Notes: generated from the letters alone by a model not told the origin. DNA of 48,510 bases from an uncultured Rubrobacteraceae bacterium (GCA_902806055.1 CADCVD010000031.1:1-48510), one strand, 5' to 3'. Positions 626 through 42,408 are shown, counted from the first letter of the stretch. Translations and numbers: made by a program.

Positions 626-1615
626 CTAATCGGGCTCGAAAACCAGCCGGTCTTCATGGCGATCGAACACGCTTCCTATCTCGTTGGACAAGCGCTTCAT
701 CCGGTCGAAGATCACTTCCCGCTCGGCTCCGGCGGCGAGTTCCGTCTGGGCATAGTGGAGCCTGACCGGGAAGAGCTCCAGGCGCCGGAGCTCGCTTTCT
801 TCCAGAGAGATCTTGAAGAGGAAAGATTGGTCGTTGCGCAGCCTCTCGTCGACCGCGTAGTCGTCTATGAAGTCACCCGTGTCGTACAGGATCGGCTTGC
901 TGCGGTAGATCTCCACTCCCTGAAAGACGTGCGCGCTGTGCCCGTAGTAGATGTCCGCTCCCCTGTCCACGACGGAGTGGGCGAACCGGCGAAAGAGGTT
1001 GGAGGGACGCTGCACCATGTTCGGGCCCCAGTGGTTGGAGAACACGACGATCTCCGCTCCTGCCTCGCGCGCGCCCGCTATCACTGCCTCCACCCGATCG
1101 AGGATCTGCGGCTCCAAGGATACCGGGAGGTAGTTCGTTCCAGGACGGTCAGGCCCGGCTGCGAAGGGCGGCTCGTTGTCCGTGAAGGCGACCAGGGCCA
1201 CCCGGCCCGCGCGGTCGGAGCCCTCCTCAAGAATAGCCGGTCGCATGGCCTCCTCCGTGTCGCGGCCGGCCCCCGCGTGTCGGATGCCAGCCGCCTCGAG
1301 GTGCTTGAGGGTATCGAGCAGGCCTCTCTCCTCAAAGTCGAGGGTGTGGTTGTTGGCCAGCGAGCAGGCGTCGATGCGGGCCGCTTTGAGAACCTCGATG
1401 GTGGAAGGGGCGGCGCGGAAGTGGAAGACCTTTGGCGTGCGCGTCCACGGCTGCTCATGATCGGTGACGGCGCACTCCAAGTTGACTATGCGCAAGTCGG
1501 CGGAAAGGAGCAGGGGGAGCACGTCGCCCCACGGCTGCTCGGGAGCGAGGTCGCGGAGCGCCTCGTTAACTCCGCGCCCGAGCATTACGTCGCCGGTCAG
1601 CGCCAGGGTGATCAC
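626..1615 (-). CDS. CapA family (PGA_cap-like metallophosphatase) protein
   Basis: LALTGDVMLGRGVNEAL, NLECAVTD, SLANNHTLDF, FSNHWGPN, YGHSAHVFQGVEIY; GTG start at 1615 overlaps the upstream gene's stop (GTGA), so the track start at 1681 is probably too long. Confidence 0.85.
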   Translation of the reverse strand: MITLALTGDVMLGRGVNEALRDLAPEQPWGDVLPLLLSADLRIVNLECAVTDHEQPWTRTPKVFHFRAAPSTIEVLKAARIDACSLANNHTLDFEERGLLDTLKHLEAAGIRHAGAGRDTEEAMRPAILEEGSDRAGRVALVAFTDNEPPFAAGPDRPGTNYLPVSLEPQILDRVEAVIAGAREAGAEIVVFSNHWGPNMVQRPSNLFRRFAHSVVDRGADIYYGHSAHVFQGVEIYRSKPILYDTGDFIDDYAVDERLRNDQSFLFKISLEESELRRLELFPVRLHYAQTELAAGAEREVIFDRMKRLSNEIGSVFDRHEDRLVFEPD

Positions 1616-2301
1616 TTGAGATCCGATTCGGTTCGACCCGGGTCGTCCTCCGGGGCGGAGCCCAGGTAGCGTGTAAACCATTCAGCGGCGAGCCGGGCGA
1701 CCTCCTGCAGAGCCCCCGGCTCCTCGAAGAGGTGCGTAGCCCCCGGCACGATCTCCAGCTCTTTCTCGGCGCGTATCTGCGTAAGCGCCTCCCGATTCAT
1801 ATCGATCACAGGGTAATCTTCTTCTCCGACGATCAGGAGCGTCGGCGCCGCGACGTGGTGCAGGGCCTCCCCCGCGAGATCAGGGCGCCCGCCACGCGAG
1901 ACAACTGCTCCTACTCTCCTCGGGCGCTCGGCCGCCGCGACTAGAGCGGCCCCGGCGCCGGTGCTGGCGCCGAAGTAGCCGACAAAAAGGTCTCGCGTGT
2001 CCGGGTTTTGCGCCAGCCAGTCGGCGGCGCCAGCGAGCCTTTCGGCGAGCAGCCCGATGTCGAACCGGAGGTGACGTGTCCGCATATCCACCTCTTCCTC
2101 TTCAGGCGTGAGGAGGTCGATGAGCAAGGTTGCCAGTCTCGCTTCGCATAAAGCTTCCGCGACGTAGCGGTTTCGGGGGCTGTGCCGGCCGCTCCCGGAG
2201 CCGTGCGCGAACAGCACGATCCCCTGGGCGTCGTTGGGGATGCACATGTTTCCTTCGAGGATTGTCAACCCCGCCGAGACTTCGACCTCGCGCTCTTGCA
2301 T
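1612..2301 (-). CDS. Dienelactone hydrolase-like alpha/beta hydrolase
   Basis: VLFAHGSGSGRHSPRNRYVAEAL, GYFGASTGAGAAL nucleophile elbow, PTLLIVGEEDYPVIDMNREAL; start moved to the internal Met at 2301. Confidence 0.85.
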   Translation of the reverse strand: MQEREVEVSAGLTILEGNMCIPNDAQGIVLFAHGSGSGRHSPRNRYVAEALCEARLATLLIDLLTPEEEEVDMRTRHLRFDIGLLAERLAGAADWLAQNPDTRDLFVGYFGASTGAGAALVAAAERPRRVGAVVSRGGRPDLAGEALHHVAAPTLLIVGEEDYPVIDMNREALTQIRAEKELEIVPGATHLFEEPGALQEVARLAAEWFTRYLGSAPEDDPGRTESDLK

Positions 2302-24388: not shown

Positions 24389-25957
24389 ATGGCGTCTATC
24401 TTACGTGCGGTGCTCACATTATCGGCGGTAACCGCCCTCTCGCGAATAACGGGGTATGTGCGTACCATGGTGGCAGCGGCGGTCTTGGGGACCGGTATAG
24501 TAGCAAACGCCTACATCGTCGCGAGCGGGCTGCCCACCATGATCTACGAGCTCTTTATGGGCGGCATCCTCTGGTCGATCTTCGTCCCGCTACTCGTCGA
24601 ACGCATGACCACCCACGGCGAAGAGGACGCCCAGAACCTCACTAACGCTCTTCTCACCCTGATCCTGCCGTTCCTCGCGCTGCTCTCCGTGCTCGGCATC
24701 GTCTTCGCCGAACCTCTGGTGAACCTCTCGACGCTCTGGGAGAACTCCTCCCTCTCGGATGAGGAGGAGCAACGGACCTTCGATCTGGCGGTACTGCTCT
24801 TCCGCTTCTCCATCCTGCACGTCTTCTTCTACGGCATCGGCACCATCGGTACCGGCGTCCTGAACGCTCACCGGCGCTTCTTCCTCCCGACCTTCGTCCC
24901 GGTCCTTAACAACGTGTTCGCCATAGCCTGCTTTCTCGGCTACGCTCTGCTCGCCCCGAGGAACCCCGACGCCGCCGTCTACCTGCTCGCCGCCACGACC
25001 ATCGGCGTCGCGCTCATGTCGCTGATGCTGTTGCCGGCGATGTATCGTCTTGGGTACAGGCTACGGCCTGTCTTCGGACACCCGGCTCTCCTCCCCGCCG
25101 CGAAGCTCGCCGGACCTATGCTCATCTTCGTGGCGGCTTCGTTCGGCCTCCAGTTCGTCGTCACCCTGCTCAGCAGCGAGTTCTTCGCGGCGCCGCAAGT
25201 TGGGTACGCCTTCGTCGTCTTCTCGCTCCCCTATGGGATCTTTATCATCGCCCTCGAAACGGCTCTCATGCCGGAGCTCTCCGAGCAGCACGCCCGCGAC
25301 GACCTGGAGGACTATCGGGATACCTTCTCCTTCGGCCTGAGGACGATGGCCTTTATCATGGTCCCTTCCACGGTCGGCCTCATCGTTCTGGCGGACCCCA
25401 TCGTCGGTCTGCTCTATGAGCGTGGGAGCTTCACCCCGGAGGACACGGAACTCGTCGCGAACATCCTCATCGCCTACTCGGTAGGGCTCGTCGCCTACTC
25501 AGCGTACTTCCTGATCGTCCGAGCGTTCTACTCCCGACAGAACACTCGCACCCCTGCCCTCCTGAACGTCGGAGTATTTTTACTCTACGCGGCCCTCGCC
25601 TATGGCCTGTCGGACCTCGTGGGAGTGACCGGTCTTGGGTTCGCCCTCTCGGGGACCAGCACCGTCTTCGCCCTTCTCGGCCTCTGGGCGACGAGAGCCG
25701 AGATCGGGCGGCTCGGCGGGCGGCGTCTCCTACGCTCTCTCTCCAAGGTACTGGCCGCCGGAGCCGTGATGTACGCCTTCGCTCTCGTTGGCATGACCCT
25801 CCTCGGAACCGGCTCAGGAGGCTTCCTCGAACGCATGCTGGTCCTCGCTGTCGTGGGGAGCATCTCCCTCTTCGCCTACCTCGGCGCGGCTTATCTACTC
25901 GGAGCCGAGGAGTTGAAGTCCGTCGTCGCTTTGCTACGTCGGAGGATTAATAAGTGA
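24389..25957 (+). CDS. murJ: Lipid II flippase MurJ/MviN
   Basis: MASILRAVLTLSAVTALSRITGYVRTMVAAAVLGTGIVANAYIVASGLPTMIYELFMGGILWSIFVPLL; multi-TM throughout. Confidence 0.93.
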   Translation: MASILRAVLTLSAVTALSRITGYVRTMVAAAVLGTGIVANAYIVASGLPTMIYELFMGGILWSIFVPLLVERMTTHGEEDAQNLTNALLTLILPFLALLSVLGIVFAEPLVNLSTLWENSSLSDEEEQRTFDLAVLLFRFSILHVFFYGIGTIGTGVLNAHRRFFLPTFVPVLNNVFAIACFLGYALLAPRNPDAAVYLLAATTIGVALMSLMLLPAMYRLGYRLRPVFGHPALLPAAKLAGPMLIFVAASFGLQFVVTLLSSEFFAAPQVGYAFVVFSLPYGIFIIALETALMPELSEQHARDDLEDYRDTFSFGLRTMAFIMVPSTVGLIVLADPIVGLLYERGSFTPEDTELVANILIAYSVGLVAYSAYFLIVRAFYSRQNTRTPALLNVGVFLLYAALAYGLSDLVGVTGLGFALSGTSTVFALLGLWATRAEIGRLGGRRLLRSLSKVLAAGAVMYAFALVGMTLLGTGSGGFLERMLVLAVVGSISLFAYLGAAYLLGAEELKSVVALLRRRINK

Positions 25958-26099: not shown

Positions 26100-27635
26100 C
26101 TATCCGCCCTGCGCCTGCCAGACGCCCGCAGAGATATCTCTGAGTAGGGCCTTGCCCTCCTCCACGTCCGCCGAGCCATGCTTGCTGAAGATGGCTATGG
26201 TGTAGGGATTGTCCTCGTGGGCGACGATACCGGCCTCGTCGTAGACCTTATAGAGCCAGCCCCCCTTGTTGGCTACCTCCGTACCTTCGGGTAGGCCGTC
26301 TCTGAGAGACGACTGGAGGTCGTTGCTGCGCATGAGGTCGACCATCTCCTGGCAGCTCTCGGGGCTCGCCGCCCGACCCGTGTAGACGTTCTTGAGGATG
26401 CTCGACATGTCGCGGGGAGTGGTACGGTTGTCTAGTTGAGGGATGGCTGCCCGCTCGCTGGTTACCTTCTGGTAGAGCATCGTGTTCGTAGCGCCTAAAG
26501 AGGCGGAGACCGCGTTCACGTACTCAGGGCCGCCGACGAGACGCGTGAGGGCGTTGGTCGCCACGTTGTCTGATTGGGTCATCATTACCCTCAGGTACTC
26601 CTCGACGGTGTGGTAACCTCCGGCCTCCTGAAACTGTAACGTCCCGGCTCCGGCCGCCCAGTCCTCGGGAGCCGTTGGGAACTCCTCCTTCAAGGAGAAC
26701 CTCCCCTCGTCTATCCGCCTGTAGACGGCGACCATTATCGGGATCTTTATGACCGAGGCGCTGAAGAAGGTCTCGTCCGGGTTGACCCCGTAGCCCCAAC
26801 CTCCTTCGAGATCCTGCACGTATACCCCGGCGGTCCCCTCACGGACGTTCCCGTACTTCTCAATAGTCTTGCGCGCCTCTTCGAGCCCCTCCTCGACCCG
26901 CTCGCGGTCCTCCTCGGGCACCTCCTCGGAGGCTGCTTTGGCCGCCGGCGCCTGCGCCGAATCGACGGCGGGCAGGGAACCCGGCTCAACAGGCTGTGCG
27001 AGGAGCCCAGAAGGCTCTGAGATGGCGGCGTTCTGCGGGTAGACGGAGCCTATAAGGTCCTCAGGTACTCCGTCTAGTACGATGTCCTCGTACTCTGGAT
27101 TCTCCGGCTCGTCGGCCCGGATGGACTTGAGGGCCGTCCACGTCTCGTCCTGCCGCTTGAAGAAGAGCATATAGACTCCCTCGTCCTCCGGCCCTTCGAC
27201 GCGCACGGAGGCCCAAGCGGGATCTAGTTTGCTCTTATAGATGCCCTTGATACTCTCGGGGGTCATACCCGGTATCTCGGCGGCTACGGCCTTGTAGGCG
27301 AGGCTCTCCGGCGTCTCCTCCGACTGTTCTGCGGCAGCAGACTCCGGAACAGGTCCCGCCTCCGGGGTGGGAGACTCCGCAGGGGCCGAAGGCTCTTCGT
27401 TCGAGGAAAGGGAGGTTTTGCCGGATAGCGCCGAGAGGTACTCCCCGAAGCTCCCCGTACCGCCCGAGGCAAGGTCGAGGGCGAGAAGGGCACAGGTTAC
27501 GGAGACCAGCAGGATAGCCAGCATGCCCAGAGACCGCCACCGCCTCCGGAGACCGAAGAGCCTGCGGCGGCTCACGTTCCAGCCATTCTCTTCCAGCCGG
27601 CGGCGCGGCCCATAGCTTTTGAAGCGCTTTCTCAC
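26100..27635 (-). CDS. Membrane-anchored class A beta-lactamase-like serine hydrolase
   Basis: N-terminal TM (MLAILLVSVTCALLAL), acidic/Pro linker, SxxK (FSASVIKIP), SDN (MTQSDNVAT), KGG (VANKGGW). Confidence 0.9.
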   Translation of the reverse strand: MRKRFKSYGPRRRLEENGWNVSRRRLFGLRRRWRSLGMLAILLVSVTCALLALDLASGGTGSFGEYLSALSGKTSLSSNEEPSAPAESPTPEAGPVPESAAAEQSEETPESLAYKAVAAEIPGMTPESIKGIYKSKLDPAWASVRVEGPEDEGVYMLFFKRQDETWTALKSIRADEPENPEYEDIVLDGVPEDLIGSVYPQNAAISEPSGLLAQPVEPGSLPAVDSAQAPAAKAASEEVPEEDRERVEEGLEEARKTIEKYGNVREGTAGVYVQDLEGGWGYGVNPDETFFSASVIKIPIMVAVYRRIDEGRFSLKEEFPTAPEDWAAGAGTLQFQEAGGYHTVEEYLRVMMTQSDNVATNALTRLVGGPEYVNAVSASLGATNTMLYQKVTSERAAIPQLDNRTTPRDMSSILKNVYTGRAASPESCQEMVDLMRSNDLQSSLRDGLPEGTEVANKGGWLYKVYDEAGIVAHEDNPYTIAIFSKHGSADVEEGKALLRDISAGVWQAQGG

Positions 27636-28072: not shown

Positions 28073-29314
28073 ATGAGGGCAACGGTCCGGCCGCTCGATG
28101 ACAGCACCAACCTTCGTGAGGGCACGGACAGGCTACGCGCGCTCGTGTATCCCGCCGCGCAGGACTCTCACGACCCGAGATGGCACCGCTTGCTATGGAG
28201 GTGGCTGGAGAGCCACCCGCTGGCGGCGGAGCATATGCACCGTTGGGTACTGGCTACCGAAGCGGATGAGGTGGTGGGGCACCTCGCGGCCACGCCCCAG
28301 TGGTACCGGATCAACGGGCAGAGGGTGATCGCCCACACGCCCGCTGACTACCAGGTGCTCCCCCAGTACGGCTTCCAGGCCCTCCTGCTCATGCGCAAGT
28401 TCTTCCGCACCATCGAGAACTGCGTCTCCATAGACATGCTGCCGTCGGTCATCGCGGTCGAGACGCGGCTCGGCGCCGAAGAGGCGGGGGAGATGCAGTA
28501 CATGGCGAAGCTGCTCAACGTCTCAAGGCTCCCCGCGCCGCCGCTCCCTTCGCGCATAAAGAAGCTCCTCAACCTTGAGGAGCGACCGGTCCTGAACGCG
28601 CAACCCGCCCCGGCGTATGCTGACCGGCCCGGTACGGACCCGCAGGGGTTCCACGAGAACGTCGTACCGCCGCCCAGTCGTCCGCGCGCCCCGATCCCTA
28701 AGCCTGTACAGGGGCTGCTAAACGGGGGGCTCCAGGTCGTCGATAAAGCGCTCGGCAGCGCCTTCGGAGGCGCGTTGAAGGTGGAGGTCCTAGACGAGTT
28801 CGACGAGTCCTTCGACGAGATGTTCGAGAAGGTAGCCGCCGAGGTGCCCGTCTTGCCGGAGAAGAACGCCGAGTTCTTGCGCTGGCGCTATGGGCCCGGA
28901 TCGCCGCAGCACCCGGTGACCATTCTCGGGGTGAGGGGCCGTGAGGGGCTCCTCGGCTACGCCGTGCTCGGGGTGACGATACAGGGGTTCTTCGACGGCC
29001 TGCGAGACGGCTACGTGCTCGACCTAATGACGCTCCCGGGACGCCACGACGTATCGAGGGCGCTGCTCCGGGAGGTAGTTAGTCATTTCAGGCAGTCGGG
29101 GGTGCCGCTCTTCAGATACCGGTTCCTTGAGTCTTCAACCTCGCCGCAGAGGAGCGATCTCCTGAAGCTAGGCTTCTTCCCCCGCAAGGGACGGCGCAAC
29201 AGCCTGCTCGTGAAGTTTGCGGACCCCGGCCTACACAAAGCGGCCCGCGACATAAACAACTGGTCGTATAGCATCGGCGACGGTGAGGCGACCTTCTGGG
29301 TTCGTTTAAGTTAG
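28073..29314 (+). CDS. GNAT-superfamily acyltransferase-like protein with Pro-rich insertion
   Basis: MRATVRPLDDSTNLREGTDRLRALVYPA, HRWVLATEADEVVGHLAATPQWYRINGQ, EFLRWRYGPGSPQHPVTILGVRGREGLLGYAVLGV; start moved to 28073. Confidence 0.7.
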   Translation: MRATVRPLDDSTNLREGTDRLRALVYPAAQDSHDPRWHRLLWRWLESHPLAAEHMHRWVLATEADEVVGHLAATPQWYRINGQRVIAHTPADYQVLPQYGFQALLLMRKFFRTIENCVSIDMLPSVIAVETRLGAEEAGEMQYMAKLLNVSRLPAPPLPSRIKKLLNLEERPVLNAQPAPAYADRPGTDPQGFHENVVPPPSRPRAPIPKPVQGLLNGGLQVVDKALGSAFGGALKVEVLDEFDESFDEMFEKVAAEVPVLPEKNAEFLRWRYGPGSPQHPVTILGVRGREGLLGYAVLGVTIQGFFDGLRDGYVLDLMTLPGRHDVSRALLREVVSHFRQSGVPLFRYRFLESSTSPQRSDLLKLGFFPRKGRRNSLLVKFADPGLHKAARDINNWSYSIGDGEATFWVRLS

Positions 29315-29332
29315 ATATAGGAGGTAACTAGA

Positions 29333-29584
29333 ATGGCGGTTAACACCGAGAACGTGAACACTGAGATACGCGGCTGGCTCCAGGAGAACGTGACGGGGAG
29401 CCGGGACATACCCGACGGCTACGCGCTCATCGAGAACGGCGTTCTAACGTCGCTACAGACTGTCGAGCTGGTCATGTTCCTTGAGGACAGGTTCGGCATC
29501 ACCGTCGAGGACGAGGAGCTAGACGAGGAGAACTTCGGCTCGATCGACGCGATCACCAACCTGGTGGCCGGCAAGTCGGGTTGA
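29333..29584 (+). CDS. Acyl carrier protein-like
   Basis: RDIPDGYALIENGVLTSLQTVELVMFLEDRFGITVEDEELDEENFGSIDAITNLV; AGGAGGTAAC RBS; attachment-site motif reads TSL. Confidence 0.88.
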   Translation: MAVNTENVNTEIRGWLQENVTGSRDIPDGYALIENGVLTSLQTVELVMFLEDRFGITVEDEELDEENFGSIDAITNLVAGKSG

Positions 29585-29586
29585 GC

Positions 29587-31161
29587 ATGCGCCCTGAGTT
29601 TACTTTCAACGATCTGCTCCACAACTCTGTCGAGCGCGACACCGGTAAGGTCGCCATCGTCGACGGCAAGAGCGAGCATACTTACGAGGATCTGTCGCGA
29701 GAGAGCGGCGCCCTCGCCGCCGCGCTTCAGGACGCTGGAGTGAAGAAAGGCGAGCGGGTCGGCATTCTCATGGACAAGTACTGGGAGGCGATAGTGGCGA
29801 TGCTCGCCGCCACGCGGATCGGTGCCGCCTTCGTGAACGTCAACCCCATGCTCAAGCCCCCGCAGGTCCGCTACATCGCCGAGGACTGCGACATCCGCGT
29901 GATGATCGGAGACTCCCCAAAGCTCGACGACATGGAGCCGAAGACGGTCGAGAGGGCATTCTACAGGGGCGAGAAGCCGGATTCGCCCGGCGTCTGCGGC
30001 GAGCTCGTGGACCTCGCGGAGGTCCTGCAAGGAGACGATAAGCCCAAGGACGTGAGCGTCTCCGAGGTCGACCTCGCCACTATCCTGTACACGTCAGGCT
30101 CGACTGGCATGCCAAAAGGCGTCTCGACGAGCCACCGCAACTTCGTGGCGGGGGCTCAGATCGTCTCTACATACGTGGAGAATACCAGCGAGGACCGCAT
30201 CCTCTCGGCGCTTCCGCTGAACTTCGACGCCGGACTCAACCAGTTCACGACCTCGCTGCGCGTCGGCGCGACCCTGGCTCTCCTCCGGTCGAGATTGCCG
30301 GGTGATCTTTTGAAGGGGCTGCGCCGGCACGAGATAACGGGCGTCACCGGGGTGCCGCCGCTGTGGGCGCTCTTGCTCCGGGGCTCGAAGTCGATAGAGG
30401 AGGAGCCGCTCGCGCATCTGCGCTACGTTGCCAACACCGGTGGGCGCATCCCCCAGGCCAACCTCGACGAGCTGAGGCGTCTCCTGGAGCCCTCCGGCAC
30501 GAAGATATACCTGATGTACGGCCTCACGGAGGCGTTCCGCTCCACCTACCTGCCGCCCGAGGAGATAGACCGCGGGACCGAGTGCATCGGTAAGGCTATC
30601 CCGGACACCCAGATCATGGTGATCAACAAACAGGGCGAGGAGTGCGCCCCGGGCGAGGTAGGCGAGCTTGTCCACCGGGGCCCGACGGTCGCGATGGGCT
30701 ACTGGGGCAAGGAGGAGGCGACGCGCAAGGCGTACCGCCCGAATCCGCTCGCCCCGCCCGAACTGTTAGACGTCGAGCGTGTCGTCTACTCCGGGGACCA
30801 GGTCCGGCGCGATGAGGAGGGCTTTCTCTACTTCGTTGGCCGCGAGGACGCGATGATAAAGTCCCAGGGTTACCGGATGAGCCCCGAGGAGATAGAGAAC
30901 CTGCTCATAGGTTCGGGCCGCGTACACGAGGCGTGCGCCTTCGGGGTGCCGGACCCGAACGTGGGCCATCAGGTCATGGCGGTCGTCTCGCTCAACGACG
31001 GCGGCGACGATGGCGTCCTTGACGAGGTCCGGGAGTATGCCGTGAAGAACGGACCGCCGTACATGGTGCCGAAGGAGATAATCGTCCGGGACGAGTTGCC
31101 GAAGACTCCTTCCGGCAAGATAGACCGAAAAGGGATAAGCAATGCTTACGCAAACAGATAA
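29587..31161 (+). CDS. AMP-dependent acyl/aminoacyl ligase
   Basis: ATILYTSGSTGMPKGVSTSHRN, YLMYGLTEAFRSTYLPP, YSGDQVRRDEEGFLYFVGREDAMIKSQGYRMSPEEIE, LPKTPSGKIDRK. Confidence 0.93.
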   Translation: MRPEFTFNDLLHNSVERDTGKVAIVDGKSEHTYEDLSRESGALAAALQDAGVKKGERVGILMDKYWEAIVAMLAATRIGAAFVNVNPMLKPPQVRYIAEDCDIRVMIGDSPKLDDMEPKTVERAFYRGEKPDSPGVCGELVDLAEVLQGDDKPKDVSVSEVDLATILYTSGSTGMPKGVSTSHRNFVAGAQIVSTYVENTSEDRILSALPLNFDAGLNQFTTSLRVGATLALLRSRLPGDLLKGLRRHEITGVTGVPPLWALLLRGSKSIEEEPLAHLRYVANTGGRIPQANLDELRRLLEPSGTKIYLMYGLTEAFRSTYLPPEEIDRGTECIGKAIPDTQIMVINKQGEECAPGEVGELVHRGPTVAMGYWGKEEATRKAYRPNPLAPPELLDVERVVYSGDQVRRDEEGFLYFVGREDAMIKSQGYRMSPEEIENLLIGSGRVHEACAFGVPDPNVGHQVMAVVSLNDGGDDGVLDEVREYAVKNGPPYMVPKEIIVRDELPKTPSGKIDRKGISNAYANR

Positions 31162-32473
31162 GGCCCAGGATCTCGCGAAGCGGTTCGGCGGCTGGCAGGA
31201 CGGCGAGTTCGCCCCAGGCGGCACCCTCGTAGGCCGGATCGCCGAGCAGTACGGTACACCCTTCTACCTCTACCACGGCGACATGATCGTGGACCGCGTC
31301 CGACGCGTGCGGAACGCGCTGGGCGGAGACGTCGAAGTCACCTACTCGGTCAAGGCCAACCCGAACCTAGCCGTCTGCCAGCTCATCGCTCGCGAGCGCC
31401 TCACCGGCGCCGAGGTAGCCTCCTCGGGCGAGCTGGTCGTGGCGCGCACGGCGGGCTTCGACCCTGAAGATATCGTCTTCGCTGGCCCCGCCAAGACCGA
31501 CGAGGAACTCAGAATGGCCGTGGACGAGGGCATTTTCGCGGTCAACGTCGAGTCCGTGAACGAGATCGACCGTCTCGCCGCCGTCGCGAAGCAGCAGGGC
31601 GAGAGGATAGGCGTCGGGCTCCGCATCAATCCCGCCGCCCAGCTTATGGGCTCCCAGATGCGCATGGGCGGGACGGTCGGACAGTTCGGCCTGGACGAGG
31701 CCGACCTCGCCGAAGCGGTCGAGAGGACGCTCTCCCACCCGGATCAGTTGACGTTACGCGGCATCCACGTCTACACGGCCACGCAGGTCTTCGATGCGGA
31801 CGCGCTCCTGGAGCATTGCCGCAACATCTTCGAGCTGGCGCTACAAACCGCCGACCTAGCGGGCAGGCCGCTACAGATGGTCGACTTCGGCGGCGGCTTC
31901 GGGGTGCCGTACTTCGAGAAGATGGAGGACTTCGACCTGGAGAGGTTCGGCCTGGGGTACCAGGAGCTCCTCGCCCGGTACCGTGCCGACCCGCGCTTCG
32001 AAGGCTGCCGCTTCGTCTTCGAGCTCGGACGCTACCTCGTGGCCGATGCAGGCGTCTACGTCACGCGGGTGGTGGACGTGAAGGACATGAAGGGCAAGAC
32101 CTTCGTCACGACCGACGGCGGGATGAACCATCACCTCACCGCAACCGGAAACATGGGGCAGGTCTTCAGGAAGGCGTACCCTATACTAAACCTCAGCAGA
32201 ATGGGAGGGGAGCCGGGCGAGCCGGTAGCGGTAGCGGGGCCGTGCTGCACGCCGCTGGATATGTTCGGGACCAGCATACCCATAGGCGAGCCGCAGCCGG
32301 GCGACCTCGTCGGGGTGTTCTACAGCGGGGCGTACGGTTTCAGCGCCAGCAACCTGGGTTTCTTGAGCCACCCGAACCCGGCTGAGATCTTGATCTGGCA
32401 GGGTGAGCCACGCCTGTTGCGGCCTGTCGGCAGGCCCGAGGACGTGCTCGCGGGCCAGAAGGCGCTCCTCTAG
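31142..32473 (+). CDS. PLP-dependent fold-III (DAP/ornithine-type) decarboxylase
   Basis: VTYSVKANPNLAVCQLIARERLTGAEVASSGEL, VDFGGGFGVPYF, FELGRYLVADAGVYVTRVVDVK, GPCCTPLDMFG; overlaps the ligase stop by 20 bp. Confidence 0.93.
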   Translation: MLTQTDKAQDLAKRFGGWQDGEFAPGGTLVGRIAEQYGTPFYLYHGDMIVDRVRRVRNALGGDVEVTYSVKANPNLAVCQLIARERLTGAEVASSGELVVARTAGFDPEDIVFAGPAKTDEELRMAVDEGIFAVNVESVNEIDRLAAVAKQQGERIGVGLRINPAAQLMGSQMRMGGTVGQFGLDEADLAEAVERTLSHPDQLTLRGIHVYTATQVFDADALLEHCRNIFELALQTADLAGRPLQMVDFGGGFGVPYFEKMEDFDLERFGLGYQELLARYRADPRFEGCRFVFELGRYLVADAGVYVTRVVDVKDMKGKTFVTTDGGMNHHLTATGNMGQVFRKAYPILNLSRMGGEPGEPVAVAGPCCTPLDMFGTSIPIGEPQPGDLVGVFYSGAYGFSASNLGFLSHPNPAEILIWQGEPRLLRPVGRPEDVLAGQKALL

Positions 32474-32521
32474 CGCCCGCAAGATAGATCCCGTTTACTC
32501 GGCACAGGGAGGAGCACACCT

Positions 32522-33622
32522 TTGAACCCGCAGCCCATCCAGGCAACGGCCGTCTATAAGGTCAGAGAGATAGAAGACGCCGGACGGAGCGAATGGGATA
32601 GCTTGCTCGAGGGCGCGCCCGGAGGCGGGCACGTACTGCAGAGCCATGAGTGGGGCGAGTTCAAGAAGCAGATCGGCTGGCAGCCCGTGCGGCTCGTGCT
32701 TGAGAGGGACGAGGAGATCGTCGGGGTCGGGCAGTTTCTCACCTACAACACGGCTCCGGTCCCCGGCAGCCTCTGGTACTGCACCAAGGGCCCCTGGCTA
32801 CCGTGGCACGACGAGGACGCTGTCCGGGCGTTCTTCGAAGGCGTCCGGGACCTCTCCCGGCGCCGGGGCGCGCACACCATCAAGATAGAGCCCGAGGTCC
32901 TCGAAGAAGAGAAGGAAGTAAAGACGCTTCTCCTTGAAGAGATCGGCTTCAAAAAGGCCCGCTACGACCTGAACCACAAGACGACCATGCTGATCGACCT
33001 GAGCGCCTCGGAGGAGGAGTTGCTCGGGAATATGAAGAGCAAGACGCGCTACAACATTCGCCTGGCCGCCAGGAAGGGCGTTGAGGTGATAGAGTCTCCT
33101 TTCGAGGAGGCGTGGGAGGCATTCTTCGACCTGCTGAAGACCACCGCCGACCGGAACGGCTTCCCTATAAGAAGGTCGCCGGAGTACCTGCACGACGTAA
33201 CGCGGAGGATGCACGACGCGGGCAACGGACGCCTGTTCTTAGCTACGCATGAGGGCATGCCGCTAGCGGGTATTTACTCCTTTACCTTTGGCGAGAAGTA
33301 CTGGTACACCTACGGCGCCTCCAGGGACGAGAAGCGTAACCTCATGCCCACCTACCTCTTGCAGTGGGAGGTGATGCGCTGGGCCAAGCGTAACGGTCTG
33401 AGGTACTACGATATGGTTGGGGTGCCCAACCCGGAGAACCTCAACGAGGGCGACTCGCTGTGGGGCGTCTACAAGTTCAAGGTAGGCTTCGGCGGGGAGA
33501 TCGCCGACTCTCTGGGTTGTCTGGATCTACCGATAAGACCTACGCGCGCCTCCGCGTGGTATAGGTTCGAGCCCGTTTATTATCGTCTCTACCAAAAGAT
33601 GAAGAACAACGTATTCTATTAG
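32522..33622 (+). CDS. FemAB/FemX-type peptidyltransferase
   Basis: HVLQSHEWGEFKKQIGWQPVRLVLERDEEIVGVGQFL, WYCTKGPWLPW, MKSKTRYNIRLAARKGVEV, YWYTYGASRDEKRNLMPTYLLQWEVMRWAKRNGLRYYDMVGVP. Confidence 0.92.
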   Translation: MNPQPIQATAVYKVREIEDAGRSEWDSLLEGAPGGGHVLQSHEWGEFKKQIGWQPVRLVLERDEEIVGVGQFLTYNTAPVPGSLWYCTKGPWLPWHDEDAVRAFFEGVRDLSRRRGAHTIKIEPEVLEEEKEVKTLLLEEIGFKKARYDLNHKTTMLIDLSASEEELLGNMKSKTRYNIRLAARKGVEVIESPFEEAWEAFFDLLKTTADRNGFPIRRSPEYLHDVTRRMHDAGNGRLFLATHEGMPLAGIYSFTFGEKYWYTYGASRDEKRNLMPTYLLQWEVMRWAKRNGLRYYDMVGVPNPENLNEGDSLWGVYKFKVGFGGEIADSLGCLDLPIRPTRASAWYRFEPVYYRLYQKMKNNVFY

Positions 33623-37621: not shown

Positions 37622-40327
37622 ATGAGCGAGCTTGGCACGCTGCAAGCCTTTCTAGAGAAGCTCCCCGAGCGCGGCGACCGGCCGGCCTTGCTGGCGCTGC
37701 GCAAGGAGGACATTGAGCGCTGGTCCTACGCTGATTTGGTCGACCACGCGCGTCGGTTGGCTCGGGGTTTCGCCGAGAGGGGCGTCGGGCGCGGAGACCA
37801 CGTGGCGCTGCTCGCCGTCAACCGGCCCGAGTGGGTAGTGGCGTGTCTGGCGGTCATCGGGGCTGGGGCGGTGGCCGTGCCCCTCGACGCGCAGATCGGG
37901 GACAAGCTGCTCCGCGGCGCTCTGGAGGACAGCGAAGCGAAGCTCGTCTTCACTACGGTGGAGGGGGCTGGCCGGATCGAGGGCCTGGAGATGGAGGCTG
38001 CGCCGGAGCTCGTCTTGCTCGATGCGGAGGACGACGAGAGAGGCTGGCGGCGGCTCCTCTCCGACGGGGGCGGCGAGCTTCCGCGTGTTGAGCCGGAGGA
38101 TCAGGCGGCGCTGTTCTACACCTCGGGCACGACCGGGACGGCGAAGGGCGTGCCGCTCAACCACCGCAACCTCTCCTTTCAGCTCAACACGCTGCTCGAA
38201 ACGGACTTGGTGGCTGAGGACGACCGGGTCATGCTGCCGCTGCCGCTCCATCACGTCTACCCGTTCGTGATGGGGATGCTTACGCCGCTCGCGGCCGGGC
38301 TGCCGATAATCATGCCCCACGCGCTTACCGGGCCTCAGATCGTGCGCGCCCTACAGGAGGGAGAAGTCACCCTGATCGTAGGCGTTCCACGACTCTACGA
38401 TGCGCTCTATTCGGGCATAGAGGATCGGGCCACGTCCGGTTCTCGGATCGTCGCCGGGCTCTTCAAGGGCGGCATCTCTTTGAGCATGTGGCTGCGCCGC
38501 CGGCTTGGCCTGCGCGCCGGCGAGCTACTGCTCCACTCTATACGCCAACGTTTCGGGCCGAACCTGCGTGTCCTCGCCTCCGGCGGCGCCGCGCTCGACC
38601 CGGAGCTGGCCTGGAATCTGGAGTCTATGGGATGGCGGGTGGCGGCTGGGTACGGCCTGACCGAGACGGCCCCGCTCCTGACGCTCAACCCGCCGGACGG
38701 CGAGAAGCTGGGGAGCGTGGGGCGGCCGGTACAGGGAGTGAGGTTGCGCATAGATCCTTCGGCGATACCAGATGAGTCCGAAAACGGGGCGAAGCCGGAG
38801 CAACGCACCGACGAGCCTCAGGAGGAGGGGGAGATCCTGGCCCGCGGCCCGAACGTTTTCTCCGGCTACCGCAACCTGCCCGAGGAGACCGAGAAGGTCT
38901 TAACCGAAGACGGATGGTTCCGCACCGGGGATCTAGGCTACTTCGACGATGATGGCTACCTGTATGTTACCGGTCGGGCCTCCACTCTCATCGTCACCAA
39001 GGGCGGAAAGAATATACAGCCCGAGAACGTAGAGGAGGTCTATACGGCCCACTCGGTTATTCGCGAGATTGGGGTGCTACAGAGAGACGGGCGTCTGGTA
39101 GCGGTGGTCGTACCGGAGGCGAGGGAGATTCAGACCCGCGACACAGAGATCGAGGAGGCGATCCGTGATGCGGTCGAGGAATGCTCGAAGAGCCTGCCCT
39201 CCTACCAGCGCCTCTCGGACTATGCCGTAAGCCGTGAGCCGCTTGAGTACACTCAGCTCGGCAAGCTCCGCCGGCACCTCTTGTCCGATCACTACGATCG
39301 GGCGAAAGAGGGCGAGGAGGGCGAGGCGCCCGGCCCGATCTCGCCGGAGGAGATGTCCGAGGAAGACAGATCCCTCCTTGAGAACGAGGCGGCGGAGAAG
39401 GTCTGGGAGATGCTCGCGAGTCGCTACCCTGATCGGCGCCTGACCCCGGATACGAGCCCGCAGCTCGACCTCGATGTGGACTCGATGGAGTGGGTGAACC
39501 TGACGATGGAGATCGGGGAGAGCACCTGGGTGGAGCTGGACGAGGAGGCGATAGAGCGCGTAGAGACCGTACGCGACCTCTTGCAAGAGGTCGCCGAGTC
39601 TGGCGAGACTGCCTCCGGCGTCTCCCCGATCGAGCAGCCCGACAAAGTGCTCGACGAGGACCAGAAGCGGTGGCTCAGGCCGCTGGGACCGGCGTCGTCG
39701 GTAGCGGCGCGAGCGATGTTCCTGCTCAACCGGACCCTGGTGCGCGGGCTCCTCCGGCTGCGGGTCGAGGGGCTGGAGAACCTGCCCGAGAGAGGGCCGT
39801 TCGTGATCGCGCCAAACCACGTCAGCTACCTGGACTCTTTCGTGGTCGGTGCGGCGCTCGACTATCGTAGGCTACGGGAGACCTACTGGGCGGGCTGGAC
39901 CGGAGCGGCCTTCGGGAACCCCGTCACCCGGACGGTGAGCAGGCTCGCCCAGGTTGTGCCCGTAGACCCCGCCCGGGCCGGCACCTCCAGCCTCGCCTTC
40001 GGTGCCGCGATCTTGCAGCGCGAGAAGAATCTCGTCTGGTTTCCGGAAGGCCAGCGCTCCTCCAGCGGCGAGCTGCAGGAGTTCAAGCGCGGAATCGGGA
40101 TGCTCCTCGACCACTACCGGGTGCCGGTGGTGCCGGTATTTATACGGGGCGCCTATGAGGCGATGCCGCCGGGCAAGGCCATCGTTCGTCCCGGCAAGGT
40201 TACGCTCATCTTCGGAGAACCTATCAGCACGGACGACCTTGAACAACAGGGCGAAGGAGACGGCGCTCAAGCCCGTATCGTCGTCGGCTTGCGCGCCCGT
40301 ATAGCGGAGCTTGGCGACCTTTTGTAA
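37622..40327 (+). CDS. Trifunctional fusion: AMP-forming acyl ligase, acyl carrier domain, PlsC-type acyltransferase
   Basis: ALFYTSGTTGTAKGVPLNHRN and VTGRASTLIVTKGGKNIQPENVEE (ligase); LDLDVDSMEWVNLTMEIGE (carrier); APNHVSYLDSFVVGAAL and VWFPEGQRSSSGELQEFKRGIGMLL (PlsC). Confidence 0.92.
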   Translation: MSELGTLQAFLEKLPERGDRPALLALRKEDIERWSYADLVDHARRLARGFAERGVGRGDHVALLAVNRPEWVVACLAVIGAGAVAVPLDAQIGDKLLRGALEDSEAKLVFTTVEGAGRIEGLEMEAAPELVLLDAEDDERGWRRLLSDGGGELPRVEPEDQAALFYTSGTTGTAKGVPLNHRNLSFQLNTLLETDLVAEDDRVMLPLPLHHVYPFVMGMLTPLAAGLPIIMPHALTGPQIVRALQEGEVTLIVGVPRLYDALYSGIEDRATSGSRIVAGLFKGGISLSMWLRRRLGLRAGELLLHSIRQRFGPNLRVLASGGAALDPELAWNLESMGWRVAAGYGLTETAPLLTLNPPDGEKLGSVGRPVQGVRLRIDPSAIPDESENGAKPEQRTDEPQEEGEILARGPNVFSGYRNLPEETEKVLTEDGWFRTGDLGYFDDDGYLYVTGRASTLIVTKGGKNIQPENVEEVYTAHSVIREIGVLQRDGRLVAVVVPEAREIQTRDTEIEEAIRDAVEECSKSLPSYQRLSDYAVSREPLEYTQLGKLRRHLLSDHYDRAKEGEEGEAPGPISPEEMSEEDRSLLENEAAEKVWEMLASRYPDRRLTPDTSPQLDLDVDSMEWVNLTMEIGESTWVELDEEAIERVETVRDLLQEVAESGETASGVSPIEQPDKVLDEDQKRWLRPLGPASSVAARAMFLLNRTLVRGLLRLRVEGLENLPERGPFVIAPNHVSYLDSFVVGAALDYRRLRETYWAGWTGAAFGNPVTRTVSRLAQVVPVDPARAGTSSLAFGAAILQREKNLVWFPEGQRSSSGELQEFKRGIGMLLDHYRVPVVPVFIRGAYEAMPPGKAIVRPGKVTLIFGEPISTDDLEQQGEGDGAQARIVVGLRARIAELGDLL

Positions 40328-40467: not shown

Positions 40468-42408
40468 ATGACGCAAGCGCAGGACAACGTCGAGACGCCG
40501 CAAGAAGCATCGCGCTCCCTTCTGAGCAGCCGCGACTGGGTGTACCTGTTGAGCCTGCTAGTCCCCTTCTTCCTGTACGATCTATTGTTGAAGGGCGTTC
40601 TGGTCTTCTCGCGTCCCGAGGACCCCGGTCTCTGGGGAGCCTTGGGGCTAATGCGCTCGGATCTTCTGTTCAACCTGGGATACGCGCTGCTCTGGATCGG
40701 GCTGTTCGCGATAGCCAGGAGGGGCGCTTCGCGTCGGGCCGTCGTCGGGCTCTTCCACCTGTCCACGCTCCTAGTCGCCCTGATAACGACCAGCGCATAC
40801 CAGTATTTCAAGGTTACCGGCTCGACCCTCGACTCTGACTACATCTACCTCTGGCTCAATTCTCCCGAGGGTACAGGGGGGGCTATCGCGAGTGAGCTAA
40901 CCACGGGCATACTCATCTTGCTCGCGGCTGTCCTCGTCTATACGATTCTCGGTCCCTGGTTGGTGACTTGGCTCTTGGGCCGCTGGCGCGGCTGGTCCGG
41001 GGGCCGGACGGCGAGTATCTCATGGCTGCGAGTCGCCGGTGTCGGGCTCGCGGTGTACGCTCTGTTCTCGTTCTCGTTGCTCCCCGGCGGCGGCTCGACG
41101 GGCGCGAGCAAGTCCTTCTCCCGGGACGCCTTCATCAACGTAATCATGACCGCCGCCGAGGTGGCGGATGGCCAGAGTCTCCCCGATCCCGCCTCCCAGC
41201 CCGCCGAGGACTCGTCCGAGGCGAGCCTGAGGCCCCTCGTAAACTCCGGGGAGAAGCGAAACGTCGTCATGATCTTTCTAGAGTCCACCCGCGCAGGCGC
41301 TACCACCGCCTACAACAGCGACCTTAGCACGACGCCGTTTCTAGACTGGTTGGCGGATAGAAGCTTGCTCGTAAACAAAGCGTACACGGTCGTCCCTCAC
41401 ACTCACAACGCCCTCACCGCGACCAACTGCGGCATCGCGCCTCCGTTGGACCCCTGGGGGACAAAGGTGCTCAGCTATTACGAGCCGCCCTCCGACTGCC
41501 TGCCCGAGCTCCTCAGCGAGCAGGGATACAACAGCGCCTACTTCATGTCGCAGGAGGGGAGCTTCGAGAGCAGCCCGAAGATCCTGAAGAACGTCGGCTA
41601 CGAGGAGTTCCACTCGGTCGATACGATGGACACAGAGGGCTTTGAGAAGACGAACTACTTTGGCTACGAGGATGAGGTTATGCTGGAGCCGAGCAAGGAG
41701 TGGTTGGAGGAGAACGGAGACGAGCCTTTCCTCGCCACATACCTCACCTCGGCCCCTCACCACGACTACCTAGCCCCTGAGAAACGTTACGGGAGCAAGC
41801 AGTTTACCAACGACGAGCTGATCAACCGTTACCTGAACAGCGTTCGCAACCAGGACTTCTTCCTGAAGCAACTGTTTGAGCAGTACCAGGAGCTAGGTCT
41901 CTACGAGGACACGGTCTTCGTTATCGTCGGCGACCACGGCGAGGCCTTCGGAGAGCACGGCCGCTACCAGCACGACAACGCGATCTACGAGGAGGGCCTG
42001 AGGGTGCCGCTCCTTGTTCACGATCCACAGCGGTTCCAGAGCGGTGCGCGTCTGCCGGGACCGGTAAATCAACTCGATGTCTTACCGACCGTAGCAGACC
42101 TTCTGGGCTACGAGGTCGAAGGTGGGGAGTATCCGGGTTACTCGCTACTAGGACCGATCCCCACAGATCGCACCCTTATGGCGAGTTGCTGGAACGCGGC
42201 TGGATGCCTGGCGAGCATCAAAGGGACCGAGAAGTACATCTATCATTTCGACGACAAGCCCGAAGAGCTCTTCGACCTCTCCAAAGACTCAGCCGAGAAG
42301 AACAACCTCGCCGCTCAGAACCCCAAAGAGGTCGAGAAGCGTCGCCAGGAGCTACTGGAATGGCGCTCTGAGGTTTACTCGAAGTACGGTATCGAGCCCC
42401 CGGAGTAG
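40468..42408 (+). CDS. LTA synthase/sulfatase-family membrane protein
   Basis: Multi-TM N-terminus; NVVMIFLESTRAGATTAYN, TPFLDWLADRSLLVNKAYTVVPHTHNALTATNCG, VFVIVGDHGEAFGEHGRYQHDNAIYEEGLRVPLLVHDP. Confidence 0.92.
   Translation: MTQAQDNVETPQEASRSLLSSRDWVYLLSLLVPFFLYDLLLKGVLVFSRPEDPGLWGALGLMRSDLLFNLGYALLWIGLFAIARRGASRRAVVGLFHLSTLLVALITTSAYQYFKVTGSTLDSDYIYLWLNSPEGTGGAIASELTTGILILLAAVLVYTILGPWLVTWLLGRWRGWSGGRTASISWLRVAGVGLAVYALFSFSLLPGGGSTGASKSFSRDAFINVIMTAAEVADGQSLPDPASQPAEDSSEASLRPLVNSGEKRNVVMIFLESTRAGATTAYNSDLSTTPFLDWLADRSLLVNKAYTVVPHTHNALTATNCGIAPPLDPWGTKVLSYYEPPSDCLPELLSEQGYNSAYFMSQEGSFESSPKILKNVGYEEFHSVDTMDTEGFEKTNYFGYEDEVMLEPSKEWLEENGDEPFLATYLTSAPHHDYLAPEKRYGSKQFTNDELINRYLNSVRNQDFFLKQLFEQYQELGLYEDTVFVIVGDHGEAFGEHGRYQHDNAIYEEGLRVPLLVHDPQRFQSGARLPGPVNQLDVLPTVADLLGYEVEGGEYPGYSLLGPIPTDRTLMASCWNAAGCLASIKGTEKYIYHFDDKPEELFDLSKDSAEKNNLAAQNPKEVEKRRQELLEWRSEVYSKYGIEPPE

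Follow-up and report, generated by a model that had tools for sequence, protein, structure and literature searches.

A conserved carrier-protein operon of Rubrobacteraceae predicted to build and transfer an omega-amino-acyl group

The window analyzed in this study, a 48,510-nucleotide stretch of DNA from an uncultured Rubrobacteraceae bacterium (GCA_902806055.1 CADCVD010000031.1:1-48510), contains an operon at positions 28073 to 33622 that encodes, in order, a tandem-GNAT acyltransferase, a stand-alone carrier protein, an adenosine monophosphate (AMP)-forming amino-acid ligase, a fold-III pyridoxal phosphate (PLP) decarboxylase and a FemAB-family transferase. The evidence presented below suggests that the core of this operon builds an omega-amino-acyl group on the carrier protein and then transfers it, a reading to which we assign a probability of roughly 0.6. 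Homologues of the ligase and the decarboxylase are known as the TIGR03098/TIGR03099 pair, which has been named solely by its association with exosortase; a literature search found no paper giving this pair a reaction, and Haft 2006 (PMC1569441) contains no mention of the ligase or the decarboxylase. Relatives of the pair in self-contained, exosortase-free operons make its chemistry directly testable.

The source genome is a metagenome-assembled genome (MAG) of a soil actinobacterium, ∼3.1 Mb in size and ∼92% complete. A first-pass annotation of the window had described five consecutive plus-strand genes, with an 18-base-pair gap between the GNAT and carrier genes and a 20-base-pair overlap of the ligase and decarboxylase genes; these features were all correct, and the open reading frames were intact. 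All five frames were coding, with a guanine-plus-cytosine content at third codon positions of 0.81-0.86, and the ratio of nonsynonymous to synonymous substitution rates (dN/dS) against three relatives was 0.05-0.45; together these values indicate that all five genes are under selection as proteins. A promoter and terminator scan of the operon yielded nothing informative.

Conservation of the operon was assessed in 37 Rubrobacteraceae genomes, including the source genome. Decarboxylase orthologues (71-96% identity) were found in 21 genomes, with the remaining 16 being operon-negative. Around these orthologues the order of carrier, ligase and decarboxylase was constant, a GNAT gene preceded them or lay close by, and the set was syntenic across the family as a unit. 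The first gene (GNAT) was present in 21/21 operon-positive and 0/16 operon-negative genomes (Fisher p 8e-11, a value that overstates the independence of kindred genomes). FemAB copies of the full operon type (≥50% identity) were likewise absent from all 16 operon-negative genomes, and were found in 13 of the 21 operon-positive ones. The five-gene unit of the first-pass annotation thus has to be redrawn as an invariant core of four genes, namely tandem GNAT, carrier, ligase and decarboxylase. FemAB was rejected as a core member; it is linked to the operon yet dispensable, and we regard it as accessory because 8/21 operon-positive relatives carry no full operon-type copy. GNAT and FemAB copies varied in number and position around the unbroken carrier-ligase-decarboxylase core, as in the layouts GNAT-carrier-ligase-decarboxylase-FemAB-GNAT (L044) and GNAT-FemAB-FemAB-GNAT-carrier-ligase-decarboxylase-FemAB (L061). 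When genome contigs were scanned with the decarboxylase alignment, 80 loci were recovered, and in 62 of these the ligase lay directly before the decarboxylase; no relatives of the decarboxylase were found in viral contigs. A GNAT-carrier-ligase-decarboxylase operon, with a decarboxylase 66% identical, was also observed on a contig labelled Sphaerobacter (Thermomicrobiota; L097), which may reflect horizontal transfer or a misbinned contig.

The specificity of the ligase (29587-31161, plus strand; an in-frame TTG at 29581 is an alternative start) was approached through its substrate pocket, for which the best solved match was VinN (3WV4). Asp230, Ser299 and Arg331 of VinN aligned with Asp, Thr and Arg in the operon ligase, and the loop before the Arg331 equivalent was shortened as in VinN. 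Arg331 reportedly binds the carboxylate of the substrate. Among 88 ligases of the family, the Asp was conserved in 86, and the Ser/Thr and the Arg in all 88. When eight acyl ligases from the source genome were used as controls, five could be aligned over the pocket columns, and neither the Asp (0/5) nor the Arg (0/5) was present in any of them. VinN is the 3-methylaspartate ligase of vicenistatin. Its residue numbering, and the functions given to Asp230, Ser299 and the shortened loop, are taken from a review (PMC11253843). The pocket predicts that an acidic amino acid is activated through its side chain, and the candidate substrate would most likely be L-aspartate or methyl-aspartate, with L-glutamate less likely.

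For the decarboxylase (31142-32473, plus strand), the best solved relatives were BtrK entries (282 bits), which are annotated as L-glutamyl-[BtrI carrier] decarboxylase, whereas diaminopimelate decarboxylases scored at most 169 bits. A GPxCTPxD ... FLSHP signature is common to the operon enzyme and BtrK, and the CTP motif was found in 82/83 related loci; the diaminopimelate decarboxylase of the source genome itself (contig C110) has CESGD ... YNSRP instead. By sequence, the operon enzyme thus resembles BtrK more than it does diaminopimelate decarboxylases, and it is predicted to act only on a carrier-bound substrate. A role of the operon in lysine biosynthesis was also considered and was rejected, given that the separate, true diaminopimelate decarboxylase on C110 means that the operon copy is not needed for lysine.

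The carrier protein (29333-29584, plus strand) has its phosphopantetheine-site Ser within an LTSL motif. An alignment of 40 carriers from related loci showed this Ser in every one (40/40), the nearest solved relatives were peptidyl carrier proteins, and a phosphopantetheinyl transferase (PPTase) is encoded in the source genome. The first gene (28073-29314, plus strand) had no family match in Pfam or NCBIfam. Its homologue in L097, however, was matched by Pfam GNAT families, and its AlphaFold model comprised two GNAT lobes (predicted local distance difference test score, pLDDT, 80), so that the original GNAT label was upheld; in Foldseek searches the match to N-myristoyltransferases spanned the full length of the model (E 1e-11, template-modelling score ∼0.5). 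For the GNAT of the alphaproteobacterial operons, the model likewise showed a tandem GNAT (pLDDT 85), and its nearest matches were Eis-like enzymes. The possibility that the Rubrobacter and alphaproteobacterial GNATs form one sequence family was rejected; profile comparison was negative, and the two partners are therefore assigned to different families with related folds. The joining of two tandem-GNAT families to one carrier module would fit a GNAT that uses the carrier-bound group.

The accessory FemAB-family protein (32522-33622, plus strand) starts with TTG, preceded by a GGAGGAG site. Its FemAB domain (PF02388, 149 bits) could be aligned to FemX structures, and it is without a coiled-coil arm. 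GNAT and FemAB genes are paired a second time on contig C61 of the source genome (L172:6586-8940, G000:C61), where no carrier, ligase or decarboxylase accompanies them and the pair sits between two membrane sulfatase genes (PF00884, LtaS-like) that are paralogues of the gene at 40468-42408 in the window.

Taken together, these observations are consistent with the following pathway, in which we infer the substrate class, the order of steps, transfer by GNAT, the role of FemAB and the acceptor. The carrier Ser would be primed by the PPTase encoded in the genome. The ligase would then adenylate an acidic amino acid at its side-chain carboxyl and load it onto the carrier, with the pocket Asp holding the amine and the Arg and Thr holding the alpha-carboxylate. 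On the carrier, the BtrK-type PLP enzyme would strip the alpha-carboxylate to leave a beta-alanyl- or gamma-aminobutyryl (GABA)-type carrier, a step proposed because of the homology to BtrK and the order of events in the VinN/VinL/VinO system. In vicenistatin biosynthesis, VinN must first load the carrier VinL before VinO can carry out the decarboxylation (PMC11284099). The tandem GNAT would then pass the omega-amino-acyl group to an amine, and FemAB, where present, may contribute to this pathway as well, perhaps by acting at an additional residue or acceptor, as its pairing with GNAT suggests. A cytoplasmic envelope precursor is our best guess for the acceptor; because no MBOAT protein (DltB-type, PF03062) was matched in the source genome, with a B. 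subtilis control being positive, any transfer would be cytoplasmic. The earlier proposal of activation, loading, decarboxylation and transfer fits the sequence evidence, with its transferase part corrected to a core GNAT and an accessory FemAB. It had left decarboxylation either before or after loading; the sequences favour the latter, in view of a decarboxylase whose nearest solved relative is BtrK and a ligase with a VinN-type acidic pocket.

Several points weigh against this proposal. Phe231 of VinN is replaced by Ala in the operon ligase (the wider family has either Ala or Tyr) and Lys330 by Phe, so that a substrate other than aspartate is possible. The GNAT could take acetyl-CoA rather than the carrier-bound group, and the usual donor of FemAB enzymes is aminoacyl-tRNA. 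Most of the relatives surveyed are incomplete MAGs whose kinship makes them non-independent; incompleteness weakens single absences, although several complete or near-complete genomes are among the operon-negative ones. Finally, the proposal, which we still judge probable, has been drawn from sequence and homology.

One alternative is that the operon is a relocated or remnant exosortase/PEP-CTERM set from which exosortase has been lost. The ligase passed the TIGR03098 profile (592.9 bits against a cut-off of 592.35) by a bare margin, and exosortase clusters also hold ligase, decarboxylase, GNAT and FemAB genes. However, the decarboxylase (421.1 bits; TIGR03099 cut-off, 478.45) and FemAB (50.3 bits; TIGR03019 cut-off, 260.35) both fell below the thresholds of their exosortase-family profiles. 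Exosortase (PF09721) was absent from the source genome (∼92% complete) and from 36 further genomes of the family (0/37), which extends the earlier observation that none lies in the window, and no complete exosortase system using these genes was found in the 37 genomes. When 29 genomes with ligase-decarboxylase loci were searched, exosortase was absent from 18, among them Pseudolabrys, Methylobacterium, Hyphomicrobiales bacterium, Shinella, Henriciella, Nocardioides and Actinoplanes; the GNAT-carrier-ligase-decarboxylase layout recurred in Pseudolabrys, Hyphomicrobiales, Shinella and Henriciella, so that several alphaproteobacteria also have exosortase-free operons. In a maximum-likelihood tree of decarboxylases, in which BtrK, SbnH and two other rows formed long branches of unsure placement, the Rubrobacteraceae clade grouped with Archangium and the Sphaerobacter-labelled contig, beside and not inside the group of alphaproteobacterial/acidobacterial and exosortase-linked proteobacterial sequences. 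A displaced or "replaced" exosortase set was disfavoured by this tree. Because the decarboxylase lies outside the exosortase-linked clade and because exosortase-free alphaproteobacterial operons exist, the module is, as judged from these sequences, not an exosortase part, and we consider the remnant explanation highly improbable. In the actinobacteria Actinoplanes and Nocardioides (L147, L159 and L160), an exosortase-clade ligase-decarboxylase pair was observed, with exosortase not found in the genomes.

An ordinary lysine, ornithine or diaminopimelate decarboxylase releasing a free amine, beside a ligase and carrier that take part in some unrelated step involving fatty acids, would agree with the overall fold and the generic similarity to diaminopimelate decarboxylases; nonetheless, the CTP/FLSHP signature and the best match to BtrK, the separate diaminopimelate decarboxylase of the genome, a ligase pocket that differs from those of fatty acyl ligases, and the adjacency of ligase and decarboxylase in 62/80 loci make this very unlikely. 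A small-molecule pathway, in which a soluble amine receives the carrier-bound group from the GNAT to yield a specialised metabolite or osmolyte-like compound, has precedent, given that BtrK and VinN/VinO, the nearest enzymes, belong to antibiotic pathways, with butirosin and macrolactam starter biosynthesis as models, and that the alphaproteobacterial four-gene operons are self-contained. Yet polyketide, glycoside and transporter genes are not beside the operon, and family-wide conservation and duplicated FemAB point to a macromolecular acceptor, so that we regard this pathway as unlikely. Envelope tailoring is a narrower form of our preferred reading, in which the omega-amino-acyl group would be added in the cytoplasm, before export, to a peptidoglycan stem peptide or to a lipid-linked amino sugar or polymer precursor. 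An envelope role is suggested by the neighbours (MurJ, VanW and a membrane sulfatase) and by FemAB: FemAB has paralogues, genes for MurJ, a beta-lactamase-fold protein, VanW/peptidoglycan-binding proteins and a membrane sulfatase lie nearby, the second GNAT-FemAB pair lies between membrane sulfatase genes on C61, and exosortase-type homologues occur in polysaccharide loci. Conversely, the alphaproteobacterial four-gene versions lie away from obvious envelope loci, FemAB is missing from 8/21 operon-positive genomes, and gene neighbourhood is weak evidence; tailoring of the envelope is therefore possible, at somewhat less than even odds.

Given that the BtrK-like character of the decarboxylase and the acidic, VinN-like pocket of the ligase were conserved in all groups sampled, the key residues of this operon suggest a function for the exosortase-associated ligase and decarboxylase genes of many bacteria. 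More tentatively, and with considerable doubt, a widespread exosortase-independent pathway can be envisaged in which a beta-alanyl or GABA group is built on a carrier and attached by tandem GNAT and FemAB to an envelope precursor, with the exosortase-associated genes carrying out the same chemistry. If the group does end on an envelope precursor, this would represent a new type of surface modification by amino-acyl groups.

Family profile searches agreed with the earlier naming of MurJ, a class-A hydrolase and VanW as neighbours of the operon. MurJ (24389-25957) is one of two copies in the operon-positive genomes G002, G004, G009, G011 and G017, and the operon-adjacent copy may be a dedicated flippase; MurJ as a neighbour common to all family members was rejected, as MurJ of operon-negative genomes is not flanked by operon genes. 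The class-A beta-lactamase-fold protein (26100-27635, minus strand) has a long N-terminal extension and is syntenic with the operon family-wide. The gene at 37622-40327, which encodes a large protein fusing an acyl ligase to a PlsC-type acyltransferase (PF00501 and PF01553), also lies near the operon in several relatives, and a homologue of PGA_cap capsule-synthesis-type metallophosphatases (PF09587) is encoded at 626-1681 (minus strand).

When compared with known systems, the operon resembles VinN-VinL-VinO of the vicenistatin starter pathway and FlvN-type enzymes, with which it shares a stand-alone AMP ligase with an Asp and Arg pocket and a short loop, a stand-alone carrier, and a PLP decarboxylase that, here by prediction, acts after loading. 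It differs in having a tandem GNAT (plus FemAB) as partner and no polyketide synthase, and in the Ala, Thr and Phe that its ligase carries for Phe231, Ser299 and Lys330 of VinN. With BtrI-BtrK of the butirosin side chain it shares a carrier and the closest solved fold-III decarboxylase relative. In butirosin biosynthesis, however, glutamate is loaded by an ATP-grasp ligase, whereas the operon ligase is AMP-forming. Dlt D-alanylation likewise combines an amino-acid ligase with a stand-alone carrier, but here no MBOAT DltB was found in the genome, a decarboxylase is added, and the transferases are predicted to be cytoplasmic. The TIGR03098/TIGR03099/TIGR03019 genes of exosortase A systems include a homologous, adjacent ligase-decarboxylase pair, with FemAB and GNAT in the wider clusters; the present operon differs from them in having no exosortase, a decarboxylase and FemAB below the cut-offs, a sister position in the tree, a carrier directly upstream and a different tandem-GNAT family. 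Finally, the operon FemAB shares fold and family with the FemX/FemAB enzymes of peptidoglycan bridges, but unlike them shows genetic linkage to a carrier operon and pairing with GNAT genes.

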